Shown here: in pieces, positions 3,186-24,627 of the stretch | Position numbering within the stretch: position 1 is the first letter of the stretch | Layout of the letters: each line of letters starts with the position of its first letter | Source of the DNA: Brevundimonas poindexterae | GTDB lineage: Bacteria > Pseudomonadota > Alphaproteobacteria > Caulobacterales > Caulobacteraceae | Length of the DNA stretch: 64,000 nt | Assembly: GCF_020524625.1 (NCBI RefSeq) | Contig: NZ_JAIVLL010000003.1 | Span: forward strand, 62,001 to 126,000 | Direction: 5' to 3' | The notes under the pieces: generated by a model | Databases searched by the model: none | What the model was told of the DNA's origin: nothing | The model's input: the letters and a program-made list of their open reading frames with translations, nothing else | Made by a program: the position numbers and the translations under genes

Positions 3186-3875
3186 GTGCAGCCCTATGTT
3201 CTTGTGATGGAAGACGAGGACGCGCTGGCGACCTTGCTTCAGTACAATCTGGAAAAGGAAGGCTACCGCGTCGTGGTGGCCGGCGACGGCGAGGAAGGCC
3301 TTGTCCAGATCGACGAGCGCCTGCCCGATCTGGTGCTGCTGGACTGGATGCTGCCCAAGGTGTCCGGCATCGAGGTGTGTCGGCGCATCCGCGGACGGCC
3401 CGAGACCCGCAACCTGCCGATCATCATGCTGACGGCGCGCGGCGAGGAAACCGACCGGGTGCGCGGTCTGGATACCGGCGCCGATGACTATCTGACCAAG
3501 CCTTTCTCGATGACCGAGCTGATCGCCCGCATCCGGGCGGTGCTGCGCCGCATCCGTCCGGGCCTGGCCGACGACCGGATCAACCACGGCGACATCGTCA
3601 TCGACCGGGTGGCCCACCGGGTGCGCCGGGCGGGCAAGGAAATCCACCTCGGCCCGACCGAATTCCGCCTGCTGGATCACTTCATGCAGCACCCGGGCCG
3701 GGTGTTCAGCCGCGAGCAGCTGCTGGACGCGGTGTGGGGCTCGGACGTCTATGTCGAGGCGCGCACGGTCGATGTGCACGTCGGCCGCCTGCGCAAGGCC
3801 CTGAACGTCGAGGGCACCGCCAACCCGATCCGCACCGTGCGCTCGGCGGGCTATTCGCTGGACCTGGACGGGTAG
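3186..3875 (+). CDS. phoB: Phosphate regulon response regulator PhoB
   Basis: OmpR/PhoB-family transcription factor that activates phosphate-starvation genes after phosphorylation by PhoR. The receiver domain (1-120) has the acidic pair E9/D10, the phospho-acceptor D53 in LLDWMLPK and K105 in TKPFS. A winged-helix DNA-binding domain fills about 135-229 and ends in the usual RTVRSAGYSL. The start is GTG. No phoR follows; in related genomes phoR lies upstream of pstC, which is outside this window. Confidence 0.96.
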   Translation: MQPYVLVMEDEDALATLLQYNLEKEGYRVVVAGDGEEGLVQIDERLPDLVLLDWMLPKVSGIEVCRRIRGRPETRNLPIIMLTARGEETDRVRGLDTGADDYLTKPFSMTELIARIRAVLRRIRPGLADDRINHGDIVIDRVAHRVRRAGKEIHLGPTEFRLLDHFMQHPGRVFSREQLLDAVWGSDVYVEARTVDVHVGRLRKALNVEGTANPIRTVRSAGYSLDLDG

Positions 3876-3922
3876 GTCGCGCACTCTCGGGGCCAGCAGT
3901 GGCGGACGAGAGGAGAATGCCG

Positions 3923-4714
3923 ATGTTGGGACTGGCCTTGGCCGCGACTTTGGCGGCCCTCTCGCCGTGTGACGCGCCCGTGGGCACGTCGATGCTGCTG
4001 GACACCGATGCGCGCATCATTGTGATCGGGGAGTTGCATGGCACTGCCGAGGTGCCGGCGGCCTTTGCGGAAATGGTGTGCGAGGCGGCGCAGCGCGGGC
4101 CGGTGACCGTGGCGCTGGAACTGCCGCAGGGCATGCAGCCGGAGATGGATGCCTTTCTGGCCGCCGAGGATGATGCCGCCGCGCTGCTGGCGCTGGAGGG
4201 CACGCCCTTTCTGGACCCCACGATGATAGATGGCCGCACCAGCCTGGCCATGGTGGCGATGCTGAACCGGATCCGGGCGCTGCGGGCCGAAGGGCTCGAT
4301 GTCACCATTCACCTGTTTCAGCCGTCGAGTGGCCGCCCTGCCGGCTTCGTCCAGAGCTGGTACGAACTGGACATGGCCAAGGCGTTGTCCGAAGGGATCT
4401 ATGCCCGGCCGGAGGCGAGGGTACTGGCGCTCGTTGGAAACCTCCACGCCAGCAAGACGGCGATAGACGACATGCCACACGTTGGCCTGCCAGCCTTCGC
4501 CCACTTTCGCCCGGCGGAAGTGTTCTCACTGCAGGTGATGTGGCAAGGCGGGGAGGCCTGGACCTGCAATCCCGAGTGCGGATCCCACGCCTATCCTTCC
4601 GCTCATGATGCCAGCGCCCGCGGCGTCATTCTGGAGCCGGATGACGAGGGGGCGTACGATGGCCTGCTGGCGGTCGGACCGACGACGGCATCGCCGCCGG
4701 TCCAAGCCGAATAA
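3923..4714 (+). CDS. ChaN/EreA-like protein of unknown function
   Basis: Predicted 263-residue protein with a short hydrophobic N-terminus (MLGLALAATLAALS) that may be a weak signal peptide. Two stretches fit the ChaN/EreA/TIKI-like fold: IIVIGELHGTAEVP followed by VALELP, and later VGNLHAS. Members include heme-binding ChaN lipoproteins and erythromycin esterases, so a substrate cannot be assigned. The ATG at 3923 is preferred to the one at 3917 because AGGAG (3911-3915) then sits 7 bases upstream. It begins 47 bases after phoB and ends flush against the convergent hslO; whether it belongs to the Pho operon is open. Confidence 0.6.
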   Translation: MLGLALAATLAALSPCDAPVGTSMLLDTDARIIVIGELHGTAEVPAAFAEMVCEAAQRGPVTVALELPQGMQPEMDAFLAAEDDAAALLALEGTPFLDPTMIDGRTSLAMVAMLNRIRALRAEGLDVTIHLFQPSSGRPAGFVQSWYELDMAKALSEGIYARPEARVLALVGNLHASKTAIDDMPHVGLPAFAHFRPAEVFSLQVMWQGGEAWTCNPECGSHAYPSAHDASARGVILEPDDEGAYDGLLAVGPTTASPPVQAE

Positions 4715-5617
4715 TCAGACGGCCGCCCCTGCCTCCAGCTCATAGACCTTGGCGCAGTATTCGCAGGTGACGTGGATCTTGCCGTCGGGCTCGACCATCT
4801 CGGCGCGTTCCTCGTCGGTGAAGCTGTCGAGGACGGTGGCGATGCGGTCAGGCGAGCAGCGGCAGTGGGCCACGAGCGGCTGGGCAGCCTCGAGGCGCAC
4901 GCCGTCCTCGTGGAACAGGCGATAGAGCAGGGTCTCTGACGGGACCAGGGGATCGATCAACTCGTCGGCGCCGATGGTGCGGAACAGGGCGCGGGCGCGG
5001 TCCCAGGCATCCTCGGTATCACCGCGCGCGGCATCGCCGGCCAGCCGCTGGATCATCATGCCGCCCGCACGCCAGGCGCTGCCGGTGTCGTCGGTCAGGC
5101 GGCCGACGGCGAGACGCACCTCGGTCGGGATCTGCTCGGACTGCTGGAAATAGTGCTCGGCGCACAGCGACAGGCTGTCGCCCTCGATGGGGGTAATGCC
5201 CTGGTGGCGTTCGAAGTCCGGCCCCTGGTCGAGGGTCATGACGAACACGCCCTTGCCCAGCAGGCGGTGCGCGCCGGGTCGGGCCTGATCCGCAGTCAGG
5301 GCGGCCAGTTCCCCTTCGTCATAGCGGCAGTAGCCGCGCAGCGTGCCCTCGGTGCCGTAGTCGGCGACGACGTAACGGACCGGGCCGTCGCCCTGGGCCT
5401 GCAGGATCAGGCGGCCCTCGAACTTGAGCGCCGAGCCGATCAGGGACGCGAGCGCGCAGGCTTCGCCCAGCAGCTCGGCCACCGGGTCCGGATAGGCGTG
5501 CGCCGACAGCACGGCGTCGATGGCCGGGCCCATGCGCACGATGCGGCCGCGCACGGGCTGGTCCTGGATCTGGAAGGCGGCAACCCGGTCGTCGGGCAGG
5601 CGGGAGGCGTCGGTCAC
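4715..5617 (-). CDS. hslO: Redox-regulated chaperone Hsp33
   Basis: Cytoplasmic holdase activated by oxidative unfolding. The C-terminus holds the zinc-binding redox switch, HCRCSP near residues 251-255 and CEYC near 284-287, giving the CxC...CxxC arrangement. The substrate-binding domain precedes it (RGRIVRMGPAIDAVL near the start). No ATG lies at the conserved N-terminus. A GTG at 5617, with AGGA seven bases upstream, gives 300 residues, the normal family length; the same frame runs on upstream without conserved content. It is convergent with the ChaN-like gene and divergent from the SDR gene. Confidence 0.92.
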   Translation of the reverse strand: MTDASRLPDDRVAAFQIQDQPVRGRIVRMGPAIDAVLSAHAYPDPVAELLGEACALASLIGSALKFEGRLILQAQGDGPVRYVVADYGTEGTLRGYCRYDEGELAALTADQARPGAHRLLGKGVFVMTLDQGPDFERHQGITPIEGDSLSLCAEHYFQQSEQIPTEVRLAVGRLTDDTGSAWRAGGMMIQRLAGDAARGDTEDAWDRARALFRTIGADELIDPLVPSETLLYRLFHEDGVRLEAAQPLVAHCRCSPDRIATVLDSFTDEERAEMVEPDGKIHVTCEYCAKVYELEAGAAV

Positions 5618-5767
5618 GTCGATATCCTGTGAGGCAAGGGCGCACAGATAGGGGGAGGGGGCGGCCAATTTAAGCCCTTGCAAGCGTTGCCTTATGATAT
5701 GGCCGGAAACCCCGGCGGGGGCTGTGCCGTTGTTCCCGTGCCCCTCACAGTGATCACAAGGCGTCCG

Positions 5768-7114
5768 ATGTCTTCCAAGCCCCAGCTGAAACCGCTCAAG
5801 GATCAGGCGATCGTCATCACCGGGGCCACGTCGGGCGTGGGCCTGACGACGGCGCGGCGGGCGGCGCGGGCGGGGGCCTGTGTGTTCCTGATCGCGCGGG
5901 GCGAACAGGACCTGAAGACGCTGTGCGAGGACATCCAGGCCGAGGGCGGCCGGGTGGCCTGGGCCGCAGCCGATGTCGCCGACTATGACGCCCTGTCCGA
6001 AGCCGCCGACAAGTGCCGGCGCCTGTTCGGTGGGTTCGACACCTGGGTGAACAATGCCGGCGTGTCGATCTTCGGCCCGATCCGCGAGACCACGCTGGAG
6101 GACCAGCGGCGCCTGTTCGAGACCAACTACTGGGGCGTGGTGAACGGTTCGCTGATCGCCGTCGAGCATCTGCGCGGCCGCCCCGGCGGCGGGGCCATCG
6201 TCAATGTCGGCTCGATCCTGTCGGATGCGCCCATCCCGCTGCAGGGCATCTATGCCGCATCGAAACATGCGGTGAAGGGCTTCACCAATTCGCTGCGGAT
6301 GGAGTTGATCCGCGAAAAGGCGCCGGTGTCGCTGAGCCTGGTCAAGCCGGCCGCGATCGACACGCCCTACAACCGTCATGCCCGAAATCTGACCGGTCAG
6401 GCCGTGCAGAATCCGCAGCCGGTCTATGGCACGCATGTGGTGGCGGACACGGTCCTCTATTGCGCCAGCCATCCGATCCGCGAGATCACCGTGGGCGGGG
6501 GCGGTCGGCTGATCGCCTCCTTCTATTCAGCCCTGCCGGGGGTTGCCGAGCCGCTGTTCGCGCGCTTTGCTCCGTCGATGATGCGCGACAAGACCCACGA
6601 CTATCACCCCTGGGATGACGGTCTGTACGACCCGACCAATGACGGCCTGGCGGACGAACTGCATTATCCGGTGGTGCGCCGCTTCAGCACCCTGGCCGAG
6701 GTGCGCAAGCACCCGGGGATCGCCGGGACGGTCGTGGCCCTGCTGGCGGCCGTCGGGGTGGGCTACATCCTGCTGAACCAGAAGTCCGGGCCGACGCGGT
6801 TCGAGCGCTGGAAGGCGCAGGCTGACCCGCGGCGCTGGCGAATGCCGTCGATGCCGTCCATGCCCTGGCTGTCGCGCCTGCGCTCTGACGGCATGGATGG
6901 ACGGCTTGAGGCCGTTCAGGCCGAGCTGGACCGCTACGGCGGGCGTGCGCGTCGCGGCCTGGAGCAGGCCGGAGGTCGGGCGCGCCGCTATGCTGCCGAT
7001 GCCGGCGGCTATGCCCGGGACCACGCGAAGGAGGGCGGGGCGGTGGCCGCCGCCACGGCCCTGCTGGGTGTGCTGGCGCTGCTGGCCATGAAGACCGGCC
7101 AGAGCGACGACTGA
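5768..7114 (+). CDS. Short-chain dehydrogenase with membrane-anchored C-terminal tail
   Basis: The N-terminal 260 residues are a classical SDR Rossmann domain: TGATSGVG at 18-25, NNAG near 95-98 and the catalytic pair Y162/K166 in YAASK. Substrate unknown. Unlike ordinary SDRs of about 250 residues, this protein is 448 residues long. A membrane segment sits near 321-337 (TVVALLAAVGVGYILL), then a methionine/proline-rich linker and a basic, glycine-rich region, then a second hydrophobic segment near 427-441. The ATG at 5768 has AAGG six bases upstream. It stands alone between the divergent hslO and the downstream serine-biosynthesis fusion. Confidence 0.88.
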   Translation: MSSKPQLKPLKDQAIVITGATSGVGLTTARRAARAGACVFLIARGEQDLKTLCEDIQAEGGRVAWAAADVADYDALSEAADKCRRLFGGFDTWVNNAGVSIFGPIRETTLEDQRRLFETNYWGVVNGSLIAVEHLRGRPGGGAIVNVGSILSDAPIPLQGIYAASKHAVKGFTNSLRMELIREKAPVSLSLVKPAAIDTPYNRHARNLTGQAVQNPQPVYGTHVVADTVLYCASHPIREITVGGGGRLIASFYSALPGVAEPLFARFAPSMMRDKTHDYHPWDDGLYDPTNDGLADELHYPVVRRFSTLAEVRKHPGIAGTVVALLAAVGVGYILLNQKSGPTRFERWKAQADPRRWRMPSMPSMPWLSRLRSDGMDGRLEAVQAELDRYGGRARRGLEQAGGRARRYAADAGGYARDHAKEGGAVAAATALLGVLALLAMKTGQSDD

Positions 7115-7153
7115 GCCGTTGCTGCACGTGCGAAGGTGGGCCAAGGTCGGCCC

Positions 7154-9043
7154 ATGACCGCGCCGACCCTGATCTTCGACTTCGATTCGACCCTCGTCGC
7201 CTTCGAGACGCTGGAGGTGCTGGCCGAGCTGTCGCTGGCCGACGCCCCCGATGCGGCGGCGATCCGGGCCGAGATCGCGGCCCTGACGGATCAGGCGATG
7301 GCGGGATCGCTCGGCTTTGGCGAGGCGCTTGAGCGGCGGCTGGCCCTGTTGCCGTTGAAGCGCGAGCATGTGGAGGCCCTGGCGGAACGGGCCGTGGCGC
7401 GGCTGGCGCCGTCGGTCGCCCGCAACGTCGAGACCCTGCGGGGGCATGCGGATCACATCGTGATCGTGTCCGGGGGCTTTCGCGAGGTGATCGCGCCCGT
7501 GGCCCGGCATCTGGGCGTTCCGGACGAGCGGATCCTGGCCAATGACCTGATCTATGACGACACGGGCCGGGTGACCGGTGCCGACCGCACCAATCCCCTG
7601 TCCATGGATGGAGGCAAGGTCACGGCGATCGGGGCCCTGGACCTGTCGGGGCCGGTGGTCATGGTGGGCGACGGCTGGACGGATGCCGAGGTGCGGCTGG
7701 CGGGCCTGGCTGACCGGTTCCATGCCTTTTGCGAGGTGGTGCGCCGCCCGCGCGTGGTCGAGGCGGCCGACGCCGTCGCCGTATCGCTGGACGAGGTCCT
7801 GCACGCCGAAGCCCTGATCGGGCGCTGGTCCTATCCCCGCAGCCGCATTCGCGTGCTGTTGCTGGAAGCGGTTCATCCGGCGGCGGTGAAGGCGCTGGAA
7901 GATGCCGGATATTCGGTCGAATGCGAGAGCGGGGCGCTCGACGAGGATGCCCTGATCGAGCGGCTGAAGGGCGTTCATGTGCTGGGCCTGCGCTCCAAGA
8001 CGGTGCTGAGCGAACGGGTCATCGAACGGGCGGACCGGCTGATGGCGGTCGGCGCCTTTTGCATCGGTACCAACCAGATCGATCTGGATGCGGCCAGCCG
8101 GCGCGGGATCGCCGTGTTCAACGCCCCCTATTCGAACACCCGTTCGGTGGTCGAGCTGGCCATCGGCGTGCTGATTGCCCTGATGCGAGGCGTGGTGGAT
8201 CGCTCGACCGCCATGCATGAGGGCCGCTGGATCAAGAGCGCCAAGGGCTCGCGCGAGCTGCGCGGCAAGACGCTGGGCATCGTCGGCTATGGGGCGATCG
8301 GCTCGCAGCTGTCGGTGCTGGCCGAGGCGCTGGGCATGCGGGTGATCTATCACGACCTGTCCGAGCGGCTGGCGCTGGGCAATGCGCGGCCGGTGGACAG
8401 CCTCGACGCCCTGCTGGCCGAGGCCGACGCGGTCAGCCTGCATGTCGACGGGCGGGCGGGAAACCGGATGCTGATCGGGGCGGCGCAGCTGGCGCGCATG
8501 AAGCCGGGGGCGCTGCTGCTCAACCTGTCTCGTGGGCATGTGGTGGACGTGGATGCGCTGGCGGCGGCGCTGTCGGACGGGCGGCTGGGCGGCGCGGCCG
8601 TGGATGTCTTTCCCGAAGAGCCGCGCACCAATCAGGATCCGTTCGACAGCCCCCTGCGCGGGCTGGCCAATGTCATCCTGACCCCGCATGTCGGCGGGTC
8701 GACCGAGGAGGCGCAGGAGGCCATCGGCGCCTTCGCGGCCTCACGCCTGCTGGGCTATCTGAACCGGGGGGACACGACCTTCTGCGTCAACCTGCCGAAT
8801 GTGCAGCTGTCGGATGTGCAGGGGGCCCACCGGCTGCTGCACATCCACCAAAACCAGCCGGGGGTGCTGGCCGCTCTCAACCAGGCGCTCTCGGACGCGG
8901 GGCTGAACATTCTGGGCCAGCATCTGAAGACCGACGGTCGCACCGGCTATGTCATCACGGACGTGGATCGTGACTATCAGGCGGGGGCCCTGGAGGTGCT
9001 GAAGGGTGTGCCCGGAACGCTGCGGTTCCGGACCTTGTACTGA
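7154..9043 (+). CDS. serA: Phosphoserine phosphatase-like / D-3-phosphoglycerate dehydrogenase fusion
   Basis: One 629-residue polypeptide carries two serine-pathway activities. Residues 1 to about 225 are a HAD-IB phosphatase resembling SerB, with FDFDST (D9, D11), a VSGGF motif II, a lysine in GGKVTAIG and GDGWTDAEV. From about 230 onward comes a short-form phosphoglycerate dehydrogenase: the GYGAIG nucleotide fold, NLSRG (Arg), FPEEP (Glu) and LTPHVGGST (His), then a C-terminal ACT domain (about 558-629) of the kind that gives serine feedback inhibition. Steps one and three of serine synthesis are thus joined; the intervening SerC is not in the window. The ATG at 7154 has AAGG seven bases upstream. 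Phosphoserine specificity is inferred from the fusion partner. Confidence 0.9.
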   Translation: MTAPTLIFDFDSTLVAFETLEVLAELSLADAPDAAAIRAEIAALTDQAMAGSLGFGEALERRLALLPLKREHVEALAERAVARLAPSVARNVETLRGHADHIVIVSGGFREVIAPVARHLGVPDERILANDLIYDDTGRVTGADRTNPLSMDGGKVTAIGALDLSGPVVMVGDGWTDAEVRLAGLADRFHAFCEVVRRPRVVEAADAVAVSLDEVLHAEALIGRWSYPRSRIRVLLLEAVHPAAVKALEDAGYSVECESGALDEDALIERLKGVHVLGLRSKTVLSERVIERADRLMAVGAFCIGTNQIDLDAASRRGIAVFNAPYSNTRSVVELAIGVLIALMRGVVDRSTAMHEGRWIKSAKGSRELRGKTLGIVGYGAIGSQLSVLAEALGMRVIYHDLSERLALGNARPVDSLDALLAEADAVSLHVDGRAGNRMLIGAAQLARMKPGALLLNLSRGHVVDVDALAAALSDGRLGGAAVDVFPEEPRTNQDPFDSPLRGLANVILTPHVGGSTEEAQEAIGAFAASRLLGYLNRGDTTFCVNLPNVQLSDVQGAHRLLHIHQNQPGVLAALNQALSDAGLNILGQHLKTDGRTGYVITDVDRDYQAGALEVLKGVPGTLRFRTLY

Positions 9044-19594: not shown

Positions 19595-20260
19595 TCAGTC
19601 GTTCGAGCCGAACACGGACTCGGCCGTGTGATGGTCGCGGCGCTCGGCGGCTTCCGGCTCGAACTCGGCCTCGGCGGCCGGCTCGGCGTCGGCCGACTGC
19701 AGGGTCGCGCCGCCCTTCCTGGCGTCCTCGCGGGCCTTCTTCTCGGCCGCCTTCTTGATCACCTCGTCGAGGGCGATCTGGCCGACCAGGCCCAGGGTTA
19801 CGGGGTCGACCGGCTTGATGTTGGCGCTGTTCCAGTGGGTGCGGTTGCGCACCGTCTCGATTGTGGCCTTGGTCGTGCCGAGCAGTTTGGCGATCTGGGC
19901 GTCGGCCACCTCGGGGTGGTTCTTGACGAACCACATGATGGCGTCGGGGCGATCCTGACGGCGCGAGACGGGGGTGTAGCGCGGCGGAGCCTTGGCGGGC
20001 TTGAGCAGTTCGGCGTGGCGGCTGACCACGGCCTTCATGCGGTAGCTGGAGTCGGACTGGGCCTTGTCCAGTTCGTCGCGGGTCAGCTGGCCGTTGACCA
20101 GCGGGTCGGCGCCGCGGATGTCGCGCGCCACGTCGCCGTCGGCGATGCCGCGAACCTCGAGCGGGTGCAGGCCGCAGAAGTCGGCGATCTGCTCGAAGGT
20201 CAGCGAGGAATTGTCCACCAGCCAGACCGCAGTGGCCTTGGGCATGAGAATGTCGGTCAT
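19595..20260 (-). CDS. trcR: Cell-cycle transcriptional regulator TrcR (DUF1013)
   Basis: 221-residue alphaproteobacterial regulator. MPKATAVWLVDNSSLTFEQI and IADFCGLHPLEVRGIADG, then IAKLLGTTKATIETVRNRTH, are hallmarks of the DUF1013 family, named TrcR in work on alphaproteobacterial cell-cycle control. Two HTH-like segments are visible, near residues 20-40 and 130-155. The C-terminus is an acidic alanine/glutamate-rich tail. The start at 20260 (MTDILMPK) matches the conserved N-terminus; the longer upstream frame does not. Confidence 0.88.
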   Translation of the reverse strand: MTDILMPKATAVWLVDNSSLTFEQIADFCGLHPLEVRGIADGDVARDIRGADPLVNGQLTRDELDKAQSDSSYRMKAVVSRHAELLKPAKAPPRYTPVSRRQDRPDAIMWFVKNHPEVADAQIAKLLGTTKATIETVRNRTHWNSANIKPVDPVTLGLVGQIALDEVIKKAAEKKAREDARKGGATLQSADAEPAAEAEFEPEAAERRDHHTAESVFGSND

Positions 20261-20474
20261 GACGTCGTTCCGGTTCAGGAGGGCTCCGGAAGGCGGAGCC
20301 GGAAACAGCGGCGCCCGACCTTTCGGCCGGGCGCGGAGAGTTTCCGTATAGGCCCATTCGCCTGAAAAGAAAACGCCATATGGCGAGGTCATACAGCCAA
20401 GGTTCATCTGCGACAGTGAACAGTGAGGCTCATGGAGGCGTTTGGGCCTCGGGACCTTTGGTGGAGGAAAGACG

Positions 20475-21113
20475 ATGTTGAATTTGGCAGGCATGGCCGC
20501 CGTATCGGCCCTGGTCATGGGCGGCAGCGCCCCGGTGATGGATCATCAGGATCCGCAGCGGGCGCCGGGCAACTATCAGGATCCGCAGCGGGTCGCCCCC
20601 CGTGGCAGCTATTCGCGCACCTGTAGCGGCGACTATGTGAACCAAGGCCGGCTGTACGCCGACTGCCGTGACGAGCGCGGCCGGATTCGCGGCACCTCGA
20701 TCGAACTGAACCGCTGCGGCCCCTATGACATCGCCAATGACAACGGACGTCTGGTCTGCGGCCCGGTCCGCGGGGACTTTGAAGACAGGCGCAACGACAA
20801 TGGCGGCGGCTGGGGTGGTGGCAACGGCGGCTGGGGCAACCGGGCCGAGATCACTGTCTATCGGGACGCCCGCTTCCGTGGGGCCTCGACGACCTTCACG
20901 GGCGAAATCCCGAACCTGGATCGCACGGGCTTCAACGACCAGATCAGCTCCATGCGCTTCCGCGGCGAGTGGGAGGTCTGCTCGGACGCCTATTTCCGGG
21001 GCAACTGCCAGCGCTTCAACGGCGATGTCAGCAATCTGGACCGCTGGGGCCTGAACGATCGCATCTCGTCGCTGCGGCCCGTGGGCCGGGGTGGCCGGGG
21101 CGACCGCTGGTAA
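20475..21113 (+). CDS. Secreted protein with CVNH and beta/gamma-crystallin domains
   Basis: 212-residue exported protein. A signal peptide (MLNLAGMAAVSALVMGGSA) is followed by a proline-rich spacer holding QDPQR twice. Residues 45-96 look like a cyanovirin-N homology domain: SYSRTCSGDYV, then RGTSIELNRC, with cysteines 50, 64, 81 and 95. After a Gly/Asn/Trp-rich linker (109-122), residues 124-203 form two beta/gamma-crystallin Greek keys, each with the calcium-binding-type motif NDxxSS (NDQISS, NDRISS). Sugar and calcium binding are inferred from the families. The start follows GGAGG. It is convergent with the quinone oxidoreductase gene. Confidence 0.82.
   Translation: MLNLAGMAAVSALVMGGSAPVMDHQDPQRAPGNYQDPQRVAPRGSYSRTCSGDYVNQGRLYADCRDERGRIRGTSIELNRCGPYDIANDNGRLVCGPVRGDFEDRRNDNGGGWGGGNGGWGNRAEITVYRDARFRGASTTFTGEIPNLDRTGFNDQISSMRFRGEWEVCSDAYFRGNCQRFNGDVSNLDRWGLNDRISSLRPVGRGGRGDRW
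20545..20591 (+). repeat. 17-base direct repeat in the CVNH/crystallin gene
   Basis: ATCAGGATCCGCAGCGG occurs twice, at 20545-20561 and 20575-20591, exactly 30 bases apart. It encodes the two QDPQR motifs of the spacer after the signal peptide, so it looks like an in-frame ten-codon duplication. Confidence 0.8.
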
Positions 21114-22088
21114 TCAGCCGGTCACCAGAACGATCTTGCCGATGTGCTCGCCCGCTTCCAGCCGGAGGTGGGCGAGACCGGCATCCTTCAGCGGGAAGGT
21201 CGCCTCGATCGGCGGCCGCACCTGGCCCGCCTCAACCCAGGGCCAGGCGATGCGTCGGACCTCGGCCATCAGCCTGGCCTTTTCGTCGGCACTGCGGGAC
21301 CGGAGGGTCGACCCGGTCAGCACGATCCGCTTCAGCATCATCCGCATCAGGTCGATTTCGGCCCGCGCGCCGCTGAGGGTGGCGATCACGCACCAGCGCC
21401 CGCCGGGCTTGAGCACCGCCTGATTGAGGGCGGCATAGTCGGCGCCCACCATATCCAGAATGACGTCGGCCCCTCCGGCCTCGCGAACGGCGGCCTCCAG
21501 ATCGTCCGAGCCGGCATCGAGGCTTAGGTCCGCGCCCAGATCGCGCGCCGCCCGGGCCTTGGCCTCGCCGCGCGAGGTGGCGATGACGCGGGCGCCGGCC
21601 GCCTTGGCCATCTGGATGGCGGTGACGCCGATGCCGCTGGTCGCGCCGTGGATCAGGAAGGTCTCTCCGGCCTTCAACCGGCCGTCCTCGAACACATTGG
21701 TGAAGACGGTCGAAAGGGTCTCGGGCAGGGCGGCGGCCTGAACGAGCTCCATGTTGTCGGGAACGGGGAAAAGGTGCCGGGCGTCAACGAGCGCCTGTTC
21801 GGCATAGCCGCCCCCGCCAAGCAGGGCGCACACCCGGTCGCCAACGGACCAGCCGCTCACGCCCTCGCCCAGCCGGTCGATCTCGCCTGCAATCTCGAGG
21901 CCCAGGGTCTCCGGAGCACCGGGCGGCGGGGGATAGAGGCCCTGACGCTGCAACAGGTCGGGGCGGTTGATCCCGGCAGCCCGCACCCGGATGCGGACCT
22001 GGCCGACGGCCGGTTCGAGGTCCGGCACCTCGACCAGCGTGAGCGCCGTCGCGGGACCTGTGCCGCCCTCGATGGTGATCTGTTTCAT
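21114..22088 (-). CDS. NAD(P)H-dependent quinone oxidoreductase (MDR family)
   Basis: 324-residue zinc-free medium-chain dehydrogenase/reductase. It has the GroES-like N-terminal fold (INRPDLLQRQGLYPPPPGAP) typical of the PIG3/quinone-reductase group and the nucleotide-binding core HGATSGIGVTAIQMAKAAGA. No structural zinc cysteine cluster is present. It probably reduces quinones or other carbonyl electrophiles with NADPH. It is divergent from the DUF1192 gene and ends flush against the convergent CVNH/crystallin gene. Confidence 0.9.
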   Translation of the reverse strand: MKQITIEGGTGPATALTLVEVPDLEPAVGQVRIRVRAAGINRPDLLQRQGLYPPPPGAPETLGLEIAGEIDRLGEGVSGWSVGDRVCALLGGGGYAEQALVDARHLFPVPDNMELVQAAALPETLSTVFTNVFEDGRLKAGETFLIHGATSGIGVTAIQMAKAAGARVIATSRGEAKARAARDLGADLSLDAGSDDLEAAVREAGGADVILDMVGADYAALNQAVLKPGGRWCVIATLSGARAEIDLMRMMLKRIVLTGSTLRSRSADEKARLMAEVRRIAWPWVEAGQVRPPIEATFPLKDAGLAHLRLEAGEHIGKIVLVTG

Positions 22089-23019: not shown

Positions 23020-24627
23020 CTACGGCCCGACGTCGTTCGCATCGACGCGGCCGTCCTGCACCGCGCGGGGCAGGGAGACGGCGATGCCGAGCGCCTCGGC
23101 CAGCTTTTCGTCGCGATTGTAGACGTCCTCGCGGAAGGCCACTCGGCCCTGACCGTCGACAAAGGCGGTCCAGTACAGCAGGCGCACGCCGATTTCCCGT
23201 CCGGTGGTCACACGGGTGGTGCGGCGGGTTTCCTGGGCCGTGTCGAACTCGGCCAGCTTCTGCGGGTCGGGCGACAGCAGCAGGCGGGCAAAGTCGACCG
23301 CGTCCTGCACCCGCACGCAGCCGTGGCTGCGGTGGCGATAGGCCAGGTTGAAAGCCGCCTTGGACGGGGTGTCGTGCAGGAAGATGGCGTAGCTGTCGCG
23401 CAGCTCGAACTTCACATAGCCGAGGGCCGAGTGGGGGCCTGCGCGCTGAATGACCGTGCCGTTCGAGACGTACATGTCATTGGCGGCCAGATAGCCGGGG
23501 CCACGGGGCAGGATCTCGTTCCGGGCAATGCCGGCGGGCACGTACCAGGGGGGATTGGCGACGACCGAGGCGAACGGCTTTTCGAGGCTGGGCGTCTGGT
23601 TGGCCGCAGAGCCGACCACGACCCGGTTCGAGTGAACGGGGCGCCCGTCCTTCCAGTAGACCATGATGGCGGCGGCCGTATTGACCTCGATCCGCTCGGG
23701 CTCGACGTCGCGAGCCAGCCAGCGGCGGCGTTCGAGGTTGAGGGCGATCTGGCGGGCGCGGTCCTCGGCCGAGGCCGAGAGAGACTGCTGGGTGCCCGAG
23801 CCGATGCGGGCGTCGACCACCAGGCCGTGACGAACCTGGAAGCTGCGGACCGCTTCCTGAAGCTCGGGGCCGTAGTAGTTGTCGGCCAGACCCAGAAGGC
23901 GCGCGCCTTCGGCCGCAGGCAGGTCGCCTTCCGCCACCAGACGCCGGATCAGGGTCGGGATGCGGCGATCCACGTCGCCGGGCTCGATATTGGCGCCGAT
24001 GCTGAAGGTCGGCCAGCCACCGTCCTCGCGGATCATGCGGCGGTAGCGGACATAGCCCGCCGACAGATTGTTGTAGCCGATGTCGGTGGGGGCCAGACCC
24101 TCGTACCAGGACACCAGGTCGCGATTCAGGGCCTGATAGAGGCCGAGCGGCAGGTCGATGCGGTTCTTGCGCATCTCCCACAGGTCCTCGACCGTCTCGG
24201 GGCGGATGCGACCCTCGCTGAGCACGCGGGCGTAGCGCAGGGCGGCGGCCGTGGTCAGCATCTCGGCCATGCCGCGATTGGCAGCCAGGGCGTCGAAGTC
24301 GAAGAAGTCGTACTGGGCCAGACCGTGGCGCTCGGCCTTCGAGGCTGCGTTGCGGAGGGCCTGGAGGCGCGGCGCCGTCCAGACAGGCGTCCAGCCGTTC
24401 ATCTCATAGAAGGCGCGCACGTCCGGCTGCTCGATCTCGGGCAGGCGGGCCAGCTGGTCATTGAAGCTGTTGTAGAAGGCGACGGCGGCCGGATCGCGCG
24501 ACGGGGGAACGCCTTGAGGGCGGCCCATCGGCGGGTCCTGCGGGGCATTCTGCGCATGGGCGGCCTGGGCGGCCCCCATGATGGCGGCGGTGGCCGCTCC
24601 CAGACCCAGTTGTCGACGCGTAATCAT
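23020..24627 (-). CDS. YcbB-type L,D-transpeptidase
   Basis: 535-residue periplasmic enzyme that forms 3-3 cross-links in peptidoglycan. The N-terminus has a twin-arginine-like signal (TRRQLGLGAATAAIMGAAQA). A scaffold/peptidoglycan-binding region (including EAVRSFQVRHGLVVDARIG, near 250-270) precedes the YkuD catalytic domain, whose signature HRSHGCVRVQ holds the nucleophilic cysteine near residue 435. The domain order and length match YcbB/LdtD rather than small YkuD enzymes. It is convergent with rcdA. Confidence 0.92.
   Translation of the reverse strand: MITRRQLGLGAATAAIMGAAQAAHAQNAPQDPPMGRPQGVPPSRDPAAVAFYNSFNDQLARLPEIEQPDVRAFYEMNGWTPVWTAPRLQALRNAASKAERHGLAQYDFFDFDALAANRGMAEMLTTAAALRYARVLSEGRIRPETVEDLWEMRKNRIDLPLGLYQALNRDLVSWYEGLAPTDIGYNNLSAGYVRYRRMIREDGGWPTFSIGANIEPGDVDRRIPTLIRRLVAEGDLPAAEGARLLGLADNYYGPELQEAVRSFQVRHGLVVDARIGSGTQQSLSASAEDRARQIALNLERRRWLARDVEPERIEVNTAAAIMVYWKDGRPVHSNRVVVGSAANQTPSLEKPFASVVANPPWYVPAGIARNEILPRGPGYLAANDMYVSNGTVIQRAGPHSALGYVKFELRDSYAIFLHDTPSKAAFNLAYRHRSHGCVRVQDAVDFARLLLSPDPQKLAEFDTAQETRRTTRVTTGREIGVRLLYWTAFVDGQGRVAFREDVYNRDEKLAEALGIAVSLPRAVQDGRVDANDVGP

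Follow-up and report, generated by a model that had tools for sequence, protein, structure and literature searches.

Can one half of a cyanovirin fold and bind sugar on its own? This question is raised by a gene in a 64,000-nucleotide stretch of the Brevundimonas poindexterae genome (the whole stretch is referred to as the window), whose product combines a half-CVNH unit, related to cyanovirin-N (CV-N), with a beta/gamma-crystallin domain. In CV-N, both repeats contribute to each sugar site. A single-repeat form found in nature would show directly whether half a cyanovirin is sufficient for folding and sugar binding, and it also bears on the origin of the CV-N fold and on the design of smaller glycan binders. 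In addition, the half unit would give the crystallins of Caulobacteraceae a likely partner activity. The protein is a real and well-conserved fusion of two known domain types. What sets it apart is the single-repeat cyanovirin unit with four cysteines, which occurs as a countable module.

Domain composition of the fusion protein

The initial annotation, made from the letters of the sequence, had proposed a cyanovirin-like domain with four cysteines joined to a calcium-type crystallin domain behind a signal peptide. Both domains were recovered, the first of them as a half only. The Pfam family CVNH (PF08881) matches residues 46-110 with positions 1-50 of its 102-position profile, at 26.3 bits against a cut-off of 24.5, and is also matched by all 20 sequences (E<=0.01) of alignment A1, which consists of the window protein and 19 relatives. 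A comparison by hhalign of 42 half units (alignment A4) with six CV-N-type halves gave a probability of 98.4% and an E-value of 5e-15. A full CVNH domain has two tandem repeats with two pseudo-symmetric sites, and one unit is present in the open reading frame. As judged by these profiles, the domain in the window protein is CVNH-like but only half of the full fold. The possibility that a second half lies hidden was rejected, since the unit is followed by a Gly-rich linker and then by the crystallin domain, and the half profiles find one unit. The four cysteines of the initial annotation are C50, C64, C81 and C95, all invariant in the 20 sequences of A1.

The crystallin domain, with its two NDxxSS motifs, was confirmed as first described. 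PF00030 matches residues 125-203 over its full length (positions 1-82 of 82) at 51.7 bits (cut-off 25). In a Foldseek search the crystallin part of the model aligned to the Ciona beta/gamma-crystallin 2bv2 with a TM-score on the target of 0.81. Both Greek keys agree with the canonical microbial Ca2+ motif N/D-N/D-x-x-S/T-S (PMC3551895), and the motif residues are invariant (Table 1). Two further cysteines within this domain, C169 and C178, are also invariant in all 20 sequences of A1. Considering the motif and the related caulollins discussed below, stabilisation by Ca2+ is a reasonable expectation.

Distribution, selection and repeat number

The whole protein or a part of it was matched in 124 of 131 Brevundimonas genomes (E<=1e-5) and in 108 of the 110 more complete ones, and four relatives from named records all belong to the same genus. 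The half-CVNH profile A2 matches 119 of 249 genomes of the family (E<=1e-3). The wider profile A4 matches 13 genomes out of 385 from the class and 8 out of 299 from the phylum, counts that include the genus of the window. For the order, the whole-protein profile has matches in 141 of 249 genomes. Purifying selection acts on both domains: in the set of 20 sequences, the uncorrected proportion of nonsynonymous differences (pN) is below that of synonymous differences (pS) in 190 of 190 pairs for each domain.

The number of half units varies among relatives. With H for the half-CVNH unit and X for the crystallin domain, the distinct protein cores are H-X (62), H (11), H-H-X (10), H-H (5), H-H-H (3) and X (3), together with single cases of six H, H-H-H-X and H-X-X; these counts were taken from best-match loci and show variety rather than frequency. 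L040 was entered as one half although a second, weak half was detected, and L140 and L146 are partial matches. Among the 62 distinct proteins with one half and a crystallin domain in the fetched loci, 51 are in loci with both of the genes that flank the window gene (trcR and a dehydrogenase gene, Table 1), one has a single flank and 10 have neither; these last 10 belong to genera of the family other than Brevundimonas. Here "both flanks" means that both neighbour genes were detected within the fetched locus, whatever their order. Five distinct proteins with two halves and a crystallin domain also occur in loci with both flanks, as do one half with two crystallin domains (L035) and three half-CVNH genes in tandem (L113). 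Copy number thus differs at one locus within the genus, and since the one-half and two-half versions share these loci, the half appears to be the unit that is gained or lost. It can be seen from the sequences as a recurring, countable unit that is present once, twice, three or six times per protein, sometimes together with crystallin and sometimes not.

Several unusual arrangements were observed besides. L108 (G885:C1:1040400-1042900) is an open frame with six tandem half-CVNH units and is crystallin-free. L121, L122 and L123 are open frames of 109-115 residues with a single half-CVNH only, from three Brevundimonas genomes that also match the fusion. In L125, L126 and L156, open frames of 419-545 residues from family members outside Brevundimonas, a half-CVNH is followed by long repeated segments of the RLE..Y...GL...ER.DLDRRFDALSA.I type.

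Cysteines and putative sugar site of the half unit

All four cysteines are invariant in the 42 units of A4, which are the window's own and 41 of 57 listed units found with a four-cysteine profile, so that the set is biased toward four-cysteine hits; classical two-cysteine halves (L036, L046) were nevertheless recovered with A4. C50 and C64 correspond to the cysteine pairs of CV-N. C81 and C95 adjoin a short insertion; neither CV-N nor the classical L036 and L046 halves have cysteines that match them.

In site B of CV-N, the mannoside is held by seven main hydrogen bonds, to the NH and C=O of N42, the NH of D44, to S52, N53 and K74 C=O, and to the side chain of T57; this list comes from a simulation that agrees with nuclear magnetic resonance data, and R76 participates less often (PMC8091458). 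Of these contact residues, the first repeat supplies N42 and D44 and the second repeat the others (PMC8091458). In the alignment, N42, D44, S52, N53, K74, T57 and R76 correspond to N88, N90, G44, S45, R65, T49 and E67 of the window protein. Among the 42 units, N88 is N in 41, N90 is N or D in 41, T49 is S or T in 41, and G91 is G in all. By alignment, one half thus holds the positions of both parts of one CV-N site. The presence of these positions makes glycan binding by the half unit plausible.

Structure models

A structure model of residues 45-96 had been named beforehand as the check on the cyanovirin assignment, and its outcome was mixed. The AlphaFold model of the half alone, built from a four-row alignment, is of low confidence (mean pLDDT 43.1), while its strand order fits three strands and a hairpin. 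The nine best Foldseek matches of this model are all CV-N or CVNH chains (best E 7.7e-3), with a root-mean-square deviation of 9-10 A over contiguous alignments. Because confidence in the models of this part is low, the CVNH assignment rests on the profiles.

In a VIA-align search with the same model, CV-N-type chains make up 20 of the 39 listed rows. In 14 of the 20, the aligned part of the half (51-54 residues) is spread across some 100 or more residues of the chain; in one further chain 48 residues align. These 14 alignments hint at a half closed on itself, with the first strands and the last hairpin of CV-N brought together; the reading is taken from the first and last residues of the rows alone, and 1n02 is a circular permutant.

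Proposed function and alternative explanations

The explanation that we tentatively prefer, with a little more doubt than confidence, is that the protein is exported to the cell envelope of Caulobacteraceae, is stabilised by Ca2+ and binds glycans through a cyanovirin unit of one repeat. The N-terminal unit would be a single cyanovirin repeat of three strands and a hairpin, with every element of one CV-N-type mannoside site. A second disulfide, C81-C95, probably staples the hairpin, and the stapled hairpin would fold back onto its own sheet to give a complete one-site lectin for which a second repeat is unneeded. A flexible glycine-rich linker would connect the half to the crystallin domain, whose NDQISS and NDRISS motifs may bind up to two Ca2+ and which would become rigid in Ca2+. 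Valency would be set by the gain or loss of repeats, and the ligand may be a mannose-bearing envelope or extracellular polysaccharide. A more specific form of this explanation, possible and held with considerable reserve, is that the half is a self-sufficient one-site "mini-cyanovirin" of about 50 residues, its hairpin locked by the second disulfide with no second repeat or domain swapping. Such units would be strung into 1-, 2-, 3- and 6-copy proteins and coupled to a Ca2+-folded crystallin domain, with valency changed by repeat gain or loss. If so, the mini-cyanovirin would resemble a single-repeat ancestor of the two-repeat cyanovirins.

A number of results weigh against a glycan-binding envelope protein of this kind. 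The PF08881 score is only marginally above its cut-off. The NCBIfam profile of a mannose-binding lectin, NF052356, matches with its first half only, at 30.4 bits against a cut-off of 80, and its second half is unmatched in the window protein. At least five Brevundimonas genomes have no match to the half-CVNH profile A2 at E<=1e-3. In the model of the whole protein (four-row alignment, pLDDT 47.9), the block values are 59-76 for the crystallin domain and about 35-49 for the half, and the model of the half alone is no more confident. In five of the 20 CV-N-type VIA-align rows, the alignment is confined to 40-44 residues of the second repeat, and Z-scores of 3.6 or less overlap with those of unrelated folds. 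With regard to the sugar site, the N42 and D44 contacts of CV-N are made by the backbone, and T57 is the only one of the seven main bonds made through a side chain (PMC8091458). R76 is not conserved, its place being taken by E67 in the window protein. The loop N and G are invariant in the six CV-N-type halves as well, and their conservation may be structural. As most of the bonds are to the backbone and N and G are shared with these six halves, the conserved loop supports the fold and the loop more than it proves sugar binding.

The start of the protein and its surroundings also speak against this explanation. Of the signal peptide in the initial annotation, a hydrophobic N-terminus is present, whereas the positive start of a typical signal peptide is missing: in 17 of the 18 rows examined, residues 1-8 are free of K and R (row L006 was read from one codon late, and A1 rows L004 and L005 were left out). 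More distant relatives, e.g. L067 and L068 of the same genus, L069 and L077, start with MR or MK. Taking the conserved cysteines and the relatives together, export is likely. The scan of ten neighbouring proteins found no glycan gene, and an envelope hint came only from an L,D-transpeptidase (23020-24627). The role at the surface or in biofilm suggested by the initial annotation gains no pointer from these ten neighbours, and the signal peptide is atypical. As a separate observation, E is frequent at position 4 of the N-terminal hydrophobic stretch in the window protein and its relatives; together with the missing K or R, this makes it an odd signal peptide.

Another explanation is that the half does not close on itself, and that two molecules swap hairpins into one full CVNH domain; the resulting homodimer would have two sites for sugar and a pair of crystallin domains. 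In CV-N, site A is formed by residues 1-38 and 90-101 and site B by residues 39-89, so that both repeats take part in each site, and domain-swapped dimers of CV-N occur (PMC4926178). With both parts of a site on one half, a symmetric dimer would carry two sites, and two-half versions occur in loci of the same kind as the window's. Self-sufficient units are suggested, however, by the existence of proteins with three or six halves and by the additional cysteine pair where the hairpin begins and ends. The low-confidence monomer model can also be aligned, as a half closed on itself, with 14 CV-N-type chains, although a monomer run cannot show a dimer. We consider hairpin swapping unlikely.

It may also be that the crystallin domain does the work, in a structural or Ca2+-buffering envelope protein, and that the CVNH half is a disulfide-stabilised spacer or interaction domain without sugar binding. 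In other families of the order, the whole-protein profile matches begin, among the matches listed, at position 78 or later, i.e. at the crystallin end. A crystallin-only paralogue adjoins the half-CVNH/crystallin gene in two family genomes, G654 (L124) and G611 (L077). The loss of R76 and the possibly structural role of the retained N and G fit a spacer as well. By contrast, the half is at least as constrained as the crystallin domain, with a pN/pS ratio of means of 0.31 against 0.40 for the first 80 crystallin codons, and the S/T found at T49 in nearly all units stands at the one main side-chain contact of CV-N. A structural or Ca2+-buffering protein of this kind is judged unlikely, and binding of a glycan by the single-repeat unit is preferred.

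A protease inhibitor of the I36 type is very improbable: Inhibitor_I36 (PF03995) matches residues 128-179 at 22.8 bits against a cut-off of 21.1, as it does 19 of the 20 A1 sequences (E<=0.01), and the Streptomyces metalloproteinase inhibitor of this type has a crystallin-like fold, but PF00030 scores far higher and at full length on the same stretch, every one of the 50 listed Foldseek matches is a crystallin or spherulin 3a, and the Ca2+ motif residues are invariant.

Relation to known systems

The half unit shares with cyanovirin-N and CVNH proteins the first cysteine pair, the N-x-N/D-G loop and an S/T before the first cysteine, and its strand order fits in the low-confidence model. It differs in having one repeat instead of two, an extra cysteine pair bracketing the hairpin, a short insertion and no equivalent of R76.

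The caulollins, a Ca2+-binding beta/gamma-crystallin pair of Caulobacter crescentus reportedly described by Jobby and Sharma in 2007, are said to be partially unstructured and to gain structure on Ca2+ binding. They come from the same bacterial family and have the same crystallin domain as the window protein. The gene pairs of G654 and G611 may be the caulollin pair. In the control genome of C. vibrioides, scanned per genome, PF00030 has a match above the cut-off and PF08881 one below it. On the basis of these pairs and matches, the window protein may be a relative of the caulollins.

Vibrillin and other microbial beta/gamma-crystallins also have a domain with two canonical Ca2+ motifs, whereas the available part of their description mentions no CVNH unit (PMC3551895). 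The CVNH-LysM lectins, or type III CVNH, likewise combine CVNH with a second module, but theirs are two halves split by an inserted LysM (PMC4926178), and the window protein has one half only. No precedent for a CVNH-crystallin fusion was found among the listed titles and abstract starts from the open-licence PMC literature, which does not prove its absence.

Gene, locus and minor observations

The coordinates of the elements are collected in Table 1. Those of the gene were correct in the initial annotation, from the ATG at 20475 to the end of the stop codon at 21113, and GGAGGA precedes the ATG. In the window genome, PF08881 and PF00030 have a single match each (E<=0.01), both in this gene.

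Table 1. Features of the half-CVNH/crystallin gene and its neighbours in the window
Feature	Position	Strand	Basis
Half-CVNH/beta-gamma-crystallin gene (212 aa, stop included)	20475..21113	+	Open reading frame, Pfam, purifying selection
GGAGGA, likely ribosome-binding site upstream of ATG 20475	20463..20468	+	Sequence
Hydrophobic N-terminal stretch (aa 1-22); probable signal peptide, its start lacking positive charge	20475..20540	+	Hydropathy; n-regions of 18 rows
Half-CVNH unit (aa 42-104)	20598..20786	+	PF08881 1-50/102; profiles A2, A4; hhalign 98.4% to CV-N-type halves
C50 and C64, counterpart of CV-N pairs C8-C22 and C58-C73	20622..20666	+	Alignment; invariant in 42/42 units
C81 and C95, extra pair flanking beta-hairpin, absent from CV-N	20715..20759	+	Alignment; invariant in 42/42 units; disulfide inferred
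Loop N88-D-N90-G91, equivalent of CV-N N42-V-D44-G45 (backbone touches mannose)	20736..20747	+	Alignment
Gly/Trp/Asn-rich low-complexity linker (aa 105-122)	20787..20840	+	Sequence; model pLDDT 26-27
Beta/gamma-crystallin domain (aa 125-203), two Greek keys	20847..21083	+	PF00030 full length; Foldseek
Ca2+ motif 1, NDQISS (aa 154-159)	20934..20951	+	Sequence; N154, D155, S158, S159 invariant in 20/20
Ca2+ motif 2, NDRISS (aa 194-199)	21054..21071	+	Sequence; N194, D195, S198, S199 invariant in 20/20
trcR (PF06242), divergent neighbour, locus marker	19595..20260	-	Neighbour scan; present in related loci
Zinc-binding dehydrogenase (quinone-oxidoreductase-like), convergent neighbour	21114..22088	-	Neighbour scan; present in related loci

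A mobile origin of the gene was considered and is unsupported, with no relative in viral contigs and none in plasmids (half-unit search only). Among 50,697 phage records, one matches, in the crystallin part only. This is L149 (ON529858.1, Brevundimonas phage vB_BgoS-Bajun), where the coding sequence of a putative tail protein of 1258 residues (locus 3527-7303) has Phage-tail_3 and Rcc01698_C matches. The crystallin domain of this tail protein (4001-4240) is 38.8% identical to that of the window protein, and its motifs are NDGASS and NDKISS.
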